Below, one piece after another: positions 26,517 to 36,281 of a DNA stretch of 45,869 bases (position 1 is the stretch's first letter; every line of letters begins with the position of its first letter). This DNA comes from Agrococcus sp. (GTDB taxonomy: Bacteria; Actinomycetota; Actinomycetes; Actinomycetales; Microbacteriaceae): the NCBI GenBank assembly GCA_031178105.1, contig JAPSJX010000007.1:1-45869 (forward strand), in the 5' to 3' direction. The notes under the pieces were generated by a model, which saw only the letters and a list, made by a program, of their open reading frames with translations, had not been told where the DNA came from and made no database searches. Both the position numbers and the translations under genes were made by a program.

Positions 26517-27173
26517 TCAGCCCGCGACGAGCGTGATCGCGATCACGAGCATGACGGCCGCGATGCCGCCGTCGAGGATGCGCCACGCGCGCTCGGTGCG
26601 CAGCAGCGGCGCGAGGAAGCGGGCGCCGTAGCCGAAGCCGACGAACCACAGCGTGCTCGCGGCGATGCCGCCGGCGAGGAACCACCACCGGGCGTCCCCG
26701 TGGGTGGCGGCGACCGAGCCGAGCACGACGGTCGTCTCGACGAGCGCGTGCGGGTTGAGCCAGGTGACGGCGAGGATCGTCGCGAGCGTCGCGAGCCGAC
26801 CGCTGCGGGTGCGCGTGGCGACCGCGCCGGCTCCGGCGACCGGCTGCGCGTCCGCGTCGGGTGCGGCCTCGAGCGACCCGCCTCCCCGCCACGCGCGCCG
26901 GGCGCTCAGCACGGCGAAGCCGACGATGAACGCGGCCCCCGCCCAGCGGGCGACCGTCTCGAGCCACGGGTGGCTCGTCACGAGCGTCGCGACGCCGGCG
27001 ACGCCGATCGCCTGCAGGATCGCGTCGCTCACGACGCACACGGCCACGACGAGCCCGACGTGCTCTCGCCGGAGCCCCTGCCGCAGCACGATCGCGTTCT
27101 GCGCGCCGATCGACAGGATCAGGCCCAGGCAGAGCCCGAACCCCGACAGCAGCGCGACGATCCCCTGGTCCAT
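26517..27173 (-). CDS. lysE: LysE/ArgO-type amino acid exporter
   Basis: A 218-aa membrane protein with about six helices, a typical LysE length. The family start GLCLGLILSIGAQNAIVLRQGLRR is clear, as is TWLNPHALVETTVVLGS after the central loop, which is Arg/Gly/Ala-rich. It exports lysine and/or arginine. It is divergent from a LysG/ArgP-type gene with 85 bp in between, the classical arrangement in Corynebacterium. ATG is 6 nt after a -10 TAGCGT, so the mRNA is probably leaderless. Confidence 0.9.
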   Translation of the reverse strand: MDQGIVALLSGFGLCLGLILSIGAQNAIVLRQGLRREHVGLVVAVCVVSDAILQAIGVAGVATLVTSHPWLETVARWAGAAFIVGFAVLSARRAWRGGGSLEAAPDADAQPVAGAGAVATRTRSGRLATLATILAVTWLNPHALVETTVVLGSVAATHGDARWWFLAGGIAASTLWFVGFGYGARFLAPLLRTERAWRILDGGIAAVMLVIAITLVAG

Positions 27174-27179
27174 GCTCCG

Positions 27180-27252
27180 ACGCTACGGCCTCGCGACAGA
27201 TGCAGTCCAGCGCATGATCCTGCGGCATCGTAAGCAGCGCTTCATCTAGGCT
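27180..27252. promoter_or_regulatory. divergent lysE-lysG promoter region
   Basis: Minus-strand TAGCGT (27185-27180) with 6 nt to the lysE ATG; plus-strand TAGGCT (27247-27252) with 6 nt to the lysG ATG. The stretch between holds GATGCAG (27199 area) and CTGCGGCATC with loose dyad symmetry, a possible LysG site; I cannot define it further. Confidence 0.55.
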
Positions 27253-27258
27253 GGGAGC

Positions 27259-28140
27259 ATGGACCTGCCGCTCGACCAGCTCCGCACGCTCGCCGCCGTC
27301 GTCGACGCGGGCACGCTCGAGCGGGCGGCGGTGCAGCTCGGCGTGACGCCGAGCGCGGTGAGCCAGCGCATCCGCGCCGTCGAGCAGCGCGTCGGGCGGG
27401 TGGTGCTGCAGCGCACGAAGCCGGTGCGCGCGACGGAGGCGGGCGAGGCACTCGTGCGGCTCGCCCGTCAGCTGGCGCTCCTCGAGCACGACGCGCGGAT
27501 CGCGCTCGGCGACGACTCCCCCGCGCAGCGCGTGCCGCTCGCCGTCAACGCCGACTCGCTCATCACCTGGTTCCTGCCGGCGCTGACCGCGGTGACCGCC
27601 GAGCGGGACGTGACCTTCGACATCCATCGGGAGGACCAGGAGCGCACGGCGCAGCTGCTCGAGGCGGGCACCGTGATGGGCGCCGTCACCTCGCAGCGCG
27701 CGCCGGTCGCCGGCTGCGTCGCGTCGCCGCTCGGGCGGATGCGCTACGTGCCGATCGCCGCACGCGCGTTCGCGGCGCGGTGGTTCCCGGACGGGCTCTC
27801 GCGAGCGGCGCTCGAGGCCGCGCCGATCGTCGACTTCGACCGCCACGACACCCTGCAGTCCCGCTTCGCGCACCGGCACGGCGCACGGGCGGATGCGCCG
27901 CGGCACGTGATCTCCGCGTCCGCGGAGTTCGCGGAGGCGGTGCGGATGGGGCTCGGCTGGGGCATGCTGCTGCCCGGCCAGTTCGAGGCCGGGCTCGCCG
28001 ACGCGTCGCTCGTGCAGCTCGCCGACGACGGCGTCGAGGTGCCGCTGTGGTGGCAGCGCTGGAACCTGTCGTCGCCGCTGCTCGACCTCGTGACGGACGC
28101 CGTGCAGGCGGCAGCGCGCTCATCGCGCGCGCTCGCCTGA
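27259..28140 (+). CDS. lysG: LysG/ArgP-type LysR family activator
   Basis: A 293-aa LysR-type regulator: N-terminal winged HTH (LDQLRTLAAVVDAGTLERAA, VTPSAVSQRIRAVEQRVGRVV) and a periplasmic-binding-like effector domain from about residue 90. ArgP/LysG-specific features are the absence of a long linker, VNADSLITWFLPAL and FDRHDTLQSRF. It senses lysine, arginine or histidine and activates the divergent lysE gene. Leaderless ATG. Confidence 0.88.
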   Translation: MDLPLDQLRTLAAVVDAGTLERAAVQLGVTPSAVSQRIRAVEQRVGRVVLQRTKPVRATEAGEALVRLARQLALLEHDARIALGDDSPAQRVPLAVNADSLITWFLPALTAVTAERDVTFDIHREDQERTAQLLEAGTVMGAVTSQRAPVAGCVASPLGRMRYVPIAARAFAARWFPDGLSRAALEAAPIVDFDRHDTLQSRFAHRHGARADAPRHVISASAEFAEAVRMGLGWGMLLPGQFEAGLADASLVQLADDGVEVPLWWQRWNLSSPLLDLVTDAVQAAARSSRALA

Positions 28141-33067: not shown

Positions 33068-34273
33068 CTACGGCACCGTCCAGTCGGCGCCGTTCACGTG
33101 CCAGCAGAACCAGATCCACACCGGCTGCAGCACGATGCACGCGCCGAGCAGCATCGCCCTCGCCCAGGCGGGTCGCAGCGCCGCCAGCATCGCCGCCGCC
33201 GGGAAGATCGGCATGAGCAGCCGCCAGGTCGACGACTGCGGGAACCACACCGCCGCCAGGTAGAGCAGGTACGCGATCGTCCAGAGCCGCGGCTCGAGCG
33301 CCACGCCCCGCCGCCACGGTCCCGCGAGCAGCGCGACCGCCGCTGCGACGATGCCCACGAGCCACAGCGGCCACCACGCGCCGAACCACCACTCGAGGCC
33401 GATGGGCCAGGGCGTCAGCGGCACGAGCTCCTGCCTGCCGATGTACGCCGAGCGCCAGCTCAGCTCGGTCTCGACGTAGGCGGTGGTGCTGCCGGTCACG
33501 ACGGTGCAGGCGATCAGCCAGCCGAAGCCCCAGAGCGCGCTCCACATCCCGAGGCCCGCGAGCATCCGCCGTTCCGCCACCGGGAACGACGCGCGATCGC
33601 CCCGGAGGCGGATGAGGAACCACAGGCCGAGCGCGAGCGCGAACGCGAGGCCCCCGGGCCGGGTGAGCGACAGCACCGGCAGCAGGACCCACAGCCACGG
33701 CCATGCGCGCAGGCGCCAGGCGAGCAGCGCACCGGCGACGAGCAGGAGGAAGAGCGACTCGGCGTAGCCGAGCTGGAGGACGGGCGCGGTCGGCGACAGC
33801 AGCACGATCGCCAGCGCGAAGCGCTCCCGCCCCGGCGCGATGTCGGCGAACAGCCGGTAGGCGACGAGCGCGAAGGCGAGCGATGCGACCACGGACAGCA
33901 GCACCGCGGCGGCCTCCCACGGGAGCCCGACCAGGGTGAGGAGCCGCGCCACCATGGGGAAGACCGGCATGAACGCCCACGCGTTCTCGCCGACGTGCCC
34001 GTCGTCGGTGATCGGCAGCTCCGACGGGTAGCCCTGCACCGACACGATGAAGTACCAGTGGGCGTCCCACATCGTCGAGTAGTCGAGCAGGTCGGGGCCC
34101 GCGGGCGTCCACGAGCTGGCCTCCTGCCGCCCGGCGAAGGCGGCGAGGAACGCGGTGCTGACGAGCCGCGAGACGAGCCACAGCGCAGCGGGCCAGAGCC
34201 ACCAGCGCTCCGCGCCCGCCTCGCGGAGCGCGGCGAGCGTCGAGCGGCGCTCGGTCAGGCCGGGGACAGCCAC
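33068..34273 (-). CDS. PIG-V-like polyprenyl-dependent mannosyltransferase (GT-C fold)
   Basis: A 401-aa integral membrane protein with about nine to ten helices. The first external loop carries DYSTMWDAHWYFIVSVQGYP, which holds the acidic Asp and WDxxWY pattern of GT-C glycosyltransferases, and a second AWAFMPVFPMVARL segment is typical of the PIG-V (GT76-like) group. It probably adds a mannose from a lipid-linked donor to a cell-envelope glycan; acceptor unknown. The start overlaps the dapE stop by 19 bp, so it is co-transcribed with dapE. GTG start, least certain end of the model. Confidence 0.75.
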   Translation of the reverse strand: MAVPGLTERRSTLAALREAGAERWWLWPAALWLVSRLVSTAFLAAFAGRQEASSWTPAGPDLLDYSTMWDAHWYFIVSVQGYPSELPITDDGHVGENAWAFMPVFPMVARLLTLVGLPWEAAAVLLSVVASLAFALVAYRLFADIAPGRERFALAIVLLSPTAPVLQLGYAESLFLLLVAGALLAWRLRAWPWLWVLLPVLSLTRPGGLAFALALGLWFLIRLRGDRASFPVAERRMLAGLGMWSALWGFGWLIACTVVTGSTTAYVETELSWRSAYIGRQELVPLTPWPIGLEWWFGAWWPLWLVGIVAAAVALLAGPWRRGVALEPRLWTIAYLLYLAAVWFPQSSTWRLLMPIFPAAAMLAALRPAWARAMLLGACIVLQPVWIWFCWHVNGADWTVP

Positions 34274-35337
34274 GCGCGGAGGCTGTCCTCGGTCGCGACG
34301 ATCTGCGCGACAGGCACCGACTCGTCGTCCGCGTGCGCCTTCGAGGGGTCACCGGGGCCGAAGTTGACGGCAGGGATGCCGAGGCCCCAGAACCGCGAGA
34401 CGTCCGTCCATCCGTACTTCGGCTGCGGCGTCACGCCGACCGCCGCGATGAACTCCTGCGCGAGCGGCGCGTCGAGCCCGGGCCGGGCGCCCGGCGCCGC
34501 GTCGACGATGCGCACGTCGAAGCCCTCGAACAGCTCGACGACGTGGGCGGTCGCCTCGTCCAGCGTGCGCGAGGGCGCGAAGCGGTAGTTGACCTGCACG
34601 ACGCACTCGTCGGGGATCACGTTCGTCGCGACGCCCCCGGAGATCGTCACGGCGTTGAGGCCCTCGCGGTAGACGAGCCCCTCCACCTCGATCTGCCGCG
34701 GACGATACGACTGCAGCACCTGCAGCACCTCTGCCGCGTCGTGGATGGCGTTGTGCCCCACCCACGCGCGCGCTGAGTGCGCGCGCACGCCGCGCGTGCG
34801 GATCTCGGCACGCAGCGTGCCGTTGCAGCCGCCCTCGATGTGCCCGTTGGAGGGCTCGCCGAGGATCGCGAAGTCGCCCTGCATGAGCTCGGGGCGCGCC
34901 TCGGCGAGCAGTCGCAGGCCGTTCTGCTCCTCGCCGACCTCCTCGTGGTCGTACCAGATCCAGGTCAGGTCGACCACGGGCTCCGAGAGCTCGGCGGCGA
35001 GCTTGAGCTGCACGGCCACGCCCGCCTTCATGTCGACGGTGCCGCGACCCCAGATGTGCGGCTCGCCGTCGACCTCGATGTCGCGGGTGGGCAGGTTGTC
35101 GTTGATCGGCACGGTGTCGATGTGGCCGGCGATGACGACGCGACGCTCGCGGCCGAGCTCCGTGCGGGCGACGACGGTGTCGCCGACGCGCGTGACCGCC
35201 AGGTGCGGCACGGCGCGCATCGCTGCCTCGATCGCGTCGGCGAGCGGTCCCTCGCGGTCCGAGACGGAGTCGATGTCGCAGAGCGCGCGGGTGAGCGCAG
35301 CGCTCGTCGCCGTCAGGTCGAGCGTCGGGGCAGCCAT
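34255..35337 (-). CDS. dapE: succinyl-diaminopimelate desuccinylase
   Basis: A 360-aa M20 metallopeptidase that removes succinate from N-succinyl-LL-diaminopimelate in lysine and peptidoglycan synthesis. Metal ligands: GHIDTVP, GRGTVDMKAG, YDHEEVGEEQNG (catalytic Glu and ligand), GEPSNG and the C-terminal FGPGDPSKAHADDE. Substrate motifs GWTDVSRFW and GHNAIHDAAEVL match actinobacterial DapE. ATG at 35337, 7 nt after a -10 TAGGCT shared in part with dapD. Transcribed away from dapD and followed by the mannosyltransferase gene. Confidence 0.93.
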   Translation of the reverse strand: MAAPTLDLTATSAALTRALCDIDSVSDREGPLADAIEAAMRAVPHLAVTRVGDTVVARTELGRERRVVIAGHIDTVPINDNLPTRDIEVDGEPHIWGRGTVDMKAGVAVQLKLAAELSEPVVDLTWIWYDHEEVGEEQNGLRLLAEARPELMQGDFAILGEPSNGHIEGGCNGTLRAEIRTRGVRAHSARAWVGHNAIHDAAEVLQVLQSYRPRQIEVEGLVYREGLNAVTISGGVATNVIPDECVVQVNYRFAPSRTLDEATAHVVELFEGFDVRIVDAAPGARPGLDAPLAQEFIAAVGVTPQPKYGWTDVSRFWGLGIPAVNFGPGDPSKAHADDESVPVAQIVATEDSLRAWLSPA

Positions 35338-35344
35338 GCGCCCA

Positions 35345-35354
35345 AGCCTAGACT
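35345..35354. promoter_or_regulatory. bidirectional dapE-dapD promoter with overlapping -10 boxes
   Basis: AGCCTAGACT reads TAGACT on plus (35349-35354), 6 nt before the dapD ATG, and TAGGCT on minus (35350-35345), 7 nt before the dapE ATG. The two hexamers share the central TA. Only 23 bp separate the start codons, so both mRNAs are leaderless and open the same DNA. Confidence 0.75.
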
Positions 35355-35360
35355 TGGAGC

Positions 35361-36281
35361 ATGGCTCGCCCCGCACACGGACATGCGCTCGTCACCGTCT
35401 TCGAGGGCCGGGTGCTCGACGCGTGGTTCCCCTCCCCCGCGCTCGGCTCGCCGAGCGGCGACGAGGCGTTGATGGGCGGCGGCAGTTTGGGCGACCAGGC
35501 CGGCCCGGTGCCCGCTCGCGGCGTCGTGCTCGAGCACCGACACGTCGAGATCGACCTGGATGCGGCTCCTGCGTCGACCGAGGACGCGTACCTGCGCCTC
35601 CACCTGCTCAGCCACCGCCTGGTGCAGCCGAACACGATCAACCTGGACGGGATCTTCGCCGCCCTCCCGATCGTCGCGTGGACGAACGCCGGGGCCGTCG
35701 ACCCCGAGTGGGCTGCCGCCAACCGCGTGGCGCTGCAGCGCGCGGGCATCCAGGTGCAGCTCGTCGACCGGTTCCCGCGCATGACCGACTTCGTCGTCCC
35801 GGATGGCGTCCGCATCGGCGACGCGTCGCGCATCCGGCTGGGCGCCCACCTCGCGCCCGGCACCGTCGTGATGCACGAGGGCTTCGTGAACTTCAACGCC
35901 GGCACGCTCGGCACCTCGATGGTCGAGGGCCGCATCTCGCAGGGCGTCGTGGTCGGCGACGGCAGCGACATCGGCGGCGGCGCCTCGATCATGGGCACGC
36001 TCTCGGGCGGGGGCAAGGAGCGGGTGCAGCTGGGCTCGCGCGTGCTGCTCGGCGCGAACGCCGGCGTCGGCATCTCGATCGGCGACGACTCGGTCGTCGA
36101 GGCGGGCCTCTACGTCACCGCCGGCACGAAGGTGACGCTCGTGCCGTCCGGTGAGACGGTGAAGGCCGTCGAGCTCTCGGGGGCTCCCGGGCTGCTGTTC
36201 CGCCGCAACTCGGTCTCGGGCGCGGTCGAGGTCGTCGCGCGCGACGGCAGCGGCGTCGAGCTGAACGCCCTCCTCCACTAG
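35361..36281 (+). CDS. dapD: tetrahydrodipicolinate N-succinyltransferase
   Basis: A 306-aa left-handed beta-helix acyltransferase that transfers succinate from succinyl-CoA to tetrahydrodipicolinate. The hexapeptide-repeat core covers about residues 150-255 ([50 protein letters not shown]). The long actinobacterial N-terminal domain with [21 protein letters not shown] is present, as in M. tuberculosis DapD (Rv1201c). Divergent from dapE through one shared promoter. Leaderless ATG. Confidence 0.93.

Follow-up and report, generated by a model that had tools for sequence, protein, structure and literature searches.

The 23-bp spacer that separates the divergent genes dapE and dapD in Agrococcus sp. 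very probably carries a bidirectional promoter of the 23-bp class, with two transcription start sites, as predicted from motif spacing, that coincide with the start codons of the two genes. The spacer lies in a window of 45,869 nucleotides (contig JAPSJX010000007.1), the whole stretch of DNA that was analyzed. Comparison with relatives established, at the level of sequence, the geometry of the site, its conservation, its leaderless signature, and the recurrence of exactly two modes of overlap. The best reading is that of a putative double-leaderless bidirectional promoter, which serves a pair of genes of the same pathway here but is not restricted to such pairs.

The dapE-dapD spacer and its leaderless signature

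dapE and dapD belong to the lysine and cell-wall pathway. The DapE protein exceeded the cutoff of family TIGR01900 (507.4 bits) and also matched PF01546 and PF07687; DapD scored 440.4 bits against TIGR03535, about 1 bit short of the cutoff of 441.5, and matched PF14602 and PF14789. The start codons (CAT at 35335-35337 for dapE, ATG at 35361-35363 for dapD) are divergent with 23 bp between them, and the remaining features are listed in Table 1. The coordinates, hexamers, gap, distances of 7 and 6 nt, and TA overlap given by the original prediction were all reproduced in the sequence. Because C 35343 and G 35356 flank the core symmetrically, each -10 hexamer is followed by NG.

Table 1. Features of the dapE-dapD region, with positions in the window.
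Feature	Position	Strand	Details
dapE, succinyl-diaminopimelate desuccinylase	34255..35337	minus	360 aa, ATG at 35337; inner ATG of ORF 34255-35376
Predicted dapE transcription start	35337	minus	A of ATG; predicted from TANNNT spacing across relatives
Intergenic spacer GCGCCCAAGCCTAGACTTGGAGC	35338..35360	none	23 bp; site of both -10 boxes of the putative bidirectional promoter
14-bp near-palindrome CNAGCCTAGRCTNG	35343..35356	none	ten-base core flanked symmetrically by invariant C (35343) and G (35356)
-10 hexamer of dapE, TAGGCT	35345..35350 (plus-strand AGCCTA)	minus	7 nt from ATG
TA common to both hexamers	35349..35350	none	positions -12/-11 of each, mutually paired
-10 hexamer of dapD, TAGACT	35349..35354	plus	6 nt from ATG
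Predicted dapD transcription start	35361	plus	A of ATG; predicted from TANNNT spacing across relatives
dapD, tetrahydrodipicolinate N-succinyltransferase	35361..36281	plus	306-aa ORF, ATG at 35361

The pattern ANNNTANNNTN6ATG matched once in the window, compared with a mean of 0.03 in shuffled sequence, and the simpler TANNNTN6ATG matched seven times, compared with 0.53 in shuffles. A consensus scan of positions 34900-35800 detected no TTGACA-like hexamer paired with a TATAAT-like hexamer 16-18 nt downstream, and no -35 element on either the dapE or the dapD side. An inverted repeat (35327-35342/35356-35371) was also considered as an element and set aside, being inconstant in relatives; it extends into both genes because DapE and DapD both begin with MA.

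Leaderless genes of Actinobacteria are described in the main text of PMC3160421 as carrying TANNNT about 12 bp ahead of the start codon. This signal was searched in 170 dapD loci, comprising 30 from 140 matching relatives (149 searched), the best 80 named, and 60 further stretches. The 157 loci used, with the duplicates L031 and L032 counted among them, have dapE divergent within 400 bp; in the 13 omitted, dapE was absent from the available DNA or not divergent within that distance. Among candidate in-frame ATG starts, TANNNT occurred at 6-7 nt 135 times for dapD and 113 times for dapE; no other spacing between 0 and 29 nt reached more than 4 occurrences for either gene. GTG candidates gave a less clean picture, with 16 occurrences at 6-7 nt for dapD (at most 3 at other spacings) and 41 for dapE (at most 9). 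With both codons combined, the signal was present at 6-7 nt 154 times for dapE and 151 times for dapD, and both genes had a leaderless box in 154 of the 157 loci when 5-8 nt was allowed. This sharp peak marks dapE and dapD as putatively leaderless, as originally proposed, in a test that uses the same TANNNT motif by which the leaderless class is defined.

In the proposed mechanism, the same 10 bp would be bound in either orientation by RNA polymerase carrying the primary sigma factor. The shared TA would serve both -10 elements as their positions -12 and -11, and each element would end 6-7 nt ahead of its +1. With +1 falling on the first letter of the start codon, both mRNAs would be leaderless and could do without a ribosome-binding site. 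The site would hold a single polymerase at a time, at a cost that is probably small at ordinary firing rates. The start sites, the activity in both directions, and the exclusion between polymerases are what we infer for dapE-dapD.

Conservation and evolution of the proposed promoter

Within the genus, 24 Agrococcus genomes were compared (the source genome and G001-G023). All of them have dapE and dapD divergent with an interlocked promoter, with start-codon gaps of 17-24 bp, which agrees with the predicted single symmetric site with interlocked -10 boxes. The shared TA is present in 21 of the 24, where the ten-base core AGCCTAGRCT is invariant in nine of its ten columns. Also invariant in these 21 loci are a C and a G that lie two bases from the core on its left and right, respectively, and the base preceding the dapD ATG, with pairwise identities of 0.30-0.90 in the remaining spacer columns tested. 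In one of the loci (L003) the dapE start is GTG instead of ATG, at an unchanged position. The expected conservation of the shared TA held in most of the genus; the three remaining loci (L020, L023, and L024) overlap in the alternative symmetric way, TANNNTA, with their boxes merged as TAGCCTA in a spacer of 17-18 bp. The dapE box of these three is still TAGGCT, and the dapD box, TAGCCT, crosses it.

In 154 dapE-dapD loci, the -12 positions of the two boxes were offset by -1 (shared TA) in 25, including two duplicates (L031 and L032), by -6 (TANNNTA) in 16, and by at least +5 in 113; no other offset below +5 was found in these loci. The gap between start codons follows the mode of overlap, being 22-25 bp with a shared TA and 17-19 bp with TANNNTA. 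The 113 loci with separate promoters retain the same divergent gene pair. TANNNTA occurs in the three Agrococcus loci and 13 others. Beyond Agrococcus, the shared TA is represented by one clear case (L160) and a doubtful one (L077, with 8 nt and GTG), which meets the rule for the 23-bp class yet remains doubtful. Offsets -1 and -6 need four fixed A/T positions, not six, because only these let the boxes share bases. The restriction to two values may come from how easily such overlaps arise and not from selection.

For a FastTree tree, the DapE and DapD sequences of each locus were joined, giving 155 rows after removal of the two duplicates, and the three loci without both signals were scored as not interlocked. 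The 24 Agrococcus loci form one clade (support 100), within which the 21 with a shared TA (79) and the three with TANNNTA (100) are also clades. Nine changes are needed on this tree for interlocked versus not interlocked, seven for the 18-bp form, and three for the 23-bp form. When rooted on outgroup rows that we chose from other families, the tree has separate promoters at the root, with eight gains of interlocking, one of them the doubtful L077, and one loss. Promoter fusion at dapE-dapD thus appears, from these reconstructions, to have happened repeatedly.

One contig in the tree, L064, is labelled Stenotrophomonas maltophilia and sits among Microbacterium rows; it is probably a contaminant or a mislabelled record.

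Relation to known promoters and other gene pairs

That divergent transcription can start from symmetric -10 elements is an established idea, as the original prediction had noted and as PMC12825309 confirms: bidirectional promoters with a common -10 symmetry have divergent starts separated mostly by 18 bp and frequently also by 10 or 23 bp, and in the 23-bp class the spacing varies slightly when the distance from -10 to +1 is not 7 bp. The two overlap modes at dapE-dapD match the 23-bp and 18-bp classes described in PMC12825309 and PMC10268837. The dapE-dapD promoter resembles the 23-bp class in its overlapping -10 elements on opposite strands, and its predicted start spacing, 24 bp because 7 nt and 6 nt separate the boxes from the starts, fits the tolerance described; assignment of the shared-TA overlap to this class is drawn from that spacing. 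It differs in that both transcripts are predicted to be leaderless mRNAs of metabolic genes and in that no -35 element was found. Because both transcripts are predicted to be leaderless, the start codons also fix the geometry of the site. The 18-bp class (TANNNTA) occurs at dapE-dapD in relatives, not in this window.

With the leaderless genes of Actinobacteria the site has in common the motif, the distance, and the phylum; the words "divergent" and "bidirectional" are absent from the main text of PMC3160421. An ordinary divergent leaderless pair has separate promoters, the state of dapE-dapD in most relatives and at the inferred root, whereas here both are fused into one site. No bidirectional promoter with both transcripts leaderless was present among the literature matches listed (open-licence PMC), which is weak evidence of absence. 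The dapE-dapD promoter is thus a well-supported candidate, from its sequence features, for a compact, conserved variant of the known bidirectional type, new in being double-leaderless.

A pattern search was extended to 199 genomes of the family Microbacteriaceae, with site counts not corrected for shared descent. The 18-bp pattern (ATG/ATG, 6/6) gave 66 sites versus 21 for its reversed form, its sole control. The 23-bp pattern (7/6) gave 181 sites, versus 26 when reversed and 22 with the core moved 3 bp off centre. The strong excess over these controls shrank when a half-pattern null, in which one leaderless promoter is kept and the far start codon moved, gave 79. Roughly half of the family-wide 23-bp matches look real and the rest resemble chance. 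At the far -7 position, a subset of 100 genomes had A in 117 sites versus 286 without it (29% A), an excess with p from 5e-13 to 1e-5 if the chance of A is 0.15-0.20, the 15-20% being our own estimate for such GC-rich DNA, and with a marginal p of 0.04 at 0.25. The interlocked double-leaderless architecture therefore appears above controls across the family, the excess being marginal if A reaches 25% at the tested site.

dapE-dapD itself accounts for at least four of the 181 23-bp sites and at least one of the 66 18-bp sites (in G031). The loci inspected were picked for recurring cores or returned by the pattern searches. Ten returned 23-bp loci (L181-L190) comprised four dapE-dapD, four real-looking pairs, and two that looked spurious; six of ten returned 18-bp loci (L171-L180) had open frames above 50 aa on both sides. 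Recurrent partners include proC with a cation transporter of the cation diffusion facilitator type (L181, L191, L193, L194, and L196), whose interlocked core is ATCCTAGGAT or a close variant in several genera, and a HAD hydrolase opposite NAD(P)H-hydrate dehydratase (L186 and L205, which are one site, and L198, L201, L203, and L204). A dapB gene is paired with an acetyltransferase gene (L195), and menB with menC, a divergent pair of the same pathway in the 18-bp interlocked leaderless form (L177 and L178, around base 1500). Protein families were tested for L191, L198, L177, and L195, where NAD(P)H-hydrate dehydratase scored under its family cutoff, and gene names at the other loci are our reading.

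A survey of 81 sequences (1.53 Mb) yielded 26 other double-leaderless divergent pairs, of which three had a shared TA and two an offset of -4; either further kinds of overlap exist or some of the pairs picked by the rule are false. The TANNNTA overlap was found in none of the 26, a sample too small to stand alone.

The window contains a further divergent pair at 27171-27261, formed by genes for a LysE-type exporter (minus strand, ATG at 27173, TAGCGT 6 nt before it) and a LysR-type regulator (plus strand, ATG at 27259, TAGGCT 6 nt before it). Leaderless signals are present on both sides, with separate promoters and 85 bp between the start codons.

Regulatory coupling and alternative readings

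The view that the arrangement serves to join two genes of one pathway is not supported, given the 113 of 154 loci with separate promoters and the other pairs that the architecture joins without an evident link between their pathways. Nor is the originally proposed forcing of mutually exclusive or balanced initiation of DapD and DapE favored by PMC12825309, where the basal firing of five tested E. coli bidirectional promoters was too low for competition between directions; competition can emerge on activation. Forced exclusivity is plausible for occupancy of the site and unsafe as a claim about output. We consider it rather probable that the promoter is compact without regulatory meaning: two leaderless promoters would have drifted together, leaving the outputs of DapD and DapE effectively independent, and the common bases would be simply the cheapest overlap, with only four A/T positions fixed, down from six. 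The predominance of separate promoters in relatives, the eight gains on the rooted tree, the joining of proC with a cation transporter, and the E. coli measurements all point in this direction. Set against such drift is the retention of interlocking in 24/24 Agrococcus genomes, even through a change of overlap mode, with one loss only on the tree; shared descent may suffice to explain it. A selected regulatory device, in which initiation would be reciprocal because polymerase has a single site and DapD and DapE would be kept in balance, is in keeping with that conservation, with the overlap of the two sites and with the 18-bp form of the same-pathway menB/menC pair, but it seems unlikely given the separate promoters of most relatives with the same gene pair and the lack of competition at basal activity in E. 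coli.

Two further readings concern the site itself. The palindrome CNAGCCTAGRCTNG, an almost perfect dyad whose symmetric flanks do not vary among 21 loci, could be the operator of a dimeric regulator instead of two -10 boxes; this is very unlikely, since the dyad of the three sister species, CTAGCCTAG, is centred differently and stands at the exact leaderless -10 spacing, the same geometry recurs with different letters at other gene pairs, and TANNNT at 6-7 nt already accounts for the core. The starts might also have been misread, one or both genes being transcribed with leaders from promoters inside the neighboring gene: the starts of dapE and dapD are predicted from sequence, and a longer dapE ORF is possible from the GTG at 35376. 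Such an error is hardly to be expected when TANNNT precedes the starts of both genes in 154/157 loci, with its peak confined to 6-7 nt.

A broader conjecture is that double-leaderless bidirectional promoters form a selected class in Microbacteriaceae, with the start codons and start sites of two genes and both their -10 elements confined to about 23-31 bp, 18-bp and 23-bp modes that interchange by small deletions, and enzyme outputs (DapD/DapE, MenB/MenC) tied through polymerase exclusion; we regard it as improbable. At leaderless genes the start codon itself shows where transcription begins, so that the bidirectional promoters of such pairs can be detected and traced in evolution by sequence analysis only. 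Separate, 23-bp, and 18-bp variants of one gene pair occur naturally at the dapE-dapD spacer and are suited to the question whether polymerase competition has consequences for the cell.

Conservation in the coding region was also considered as a regulatory sign and discarded: third-base conservation at dapD codons 2-6 was 0.82, only mildly raised over the window median of 0.69, and the first window of dapD ranked 36 of 303 in the genus. The first dapD codons (35361-35390) tend to end in A or T in the genus (GCA in 18/21, GGA in 19/21, and CAT in 16/21) in otherwise GC-rich DNA, which perhaps reflects low structure at a leaderless 5' end.
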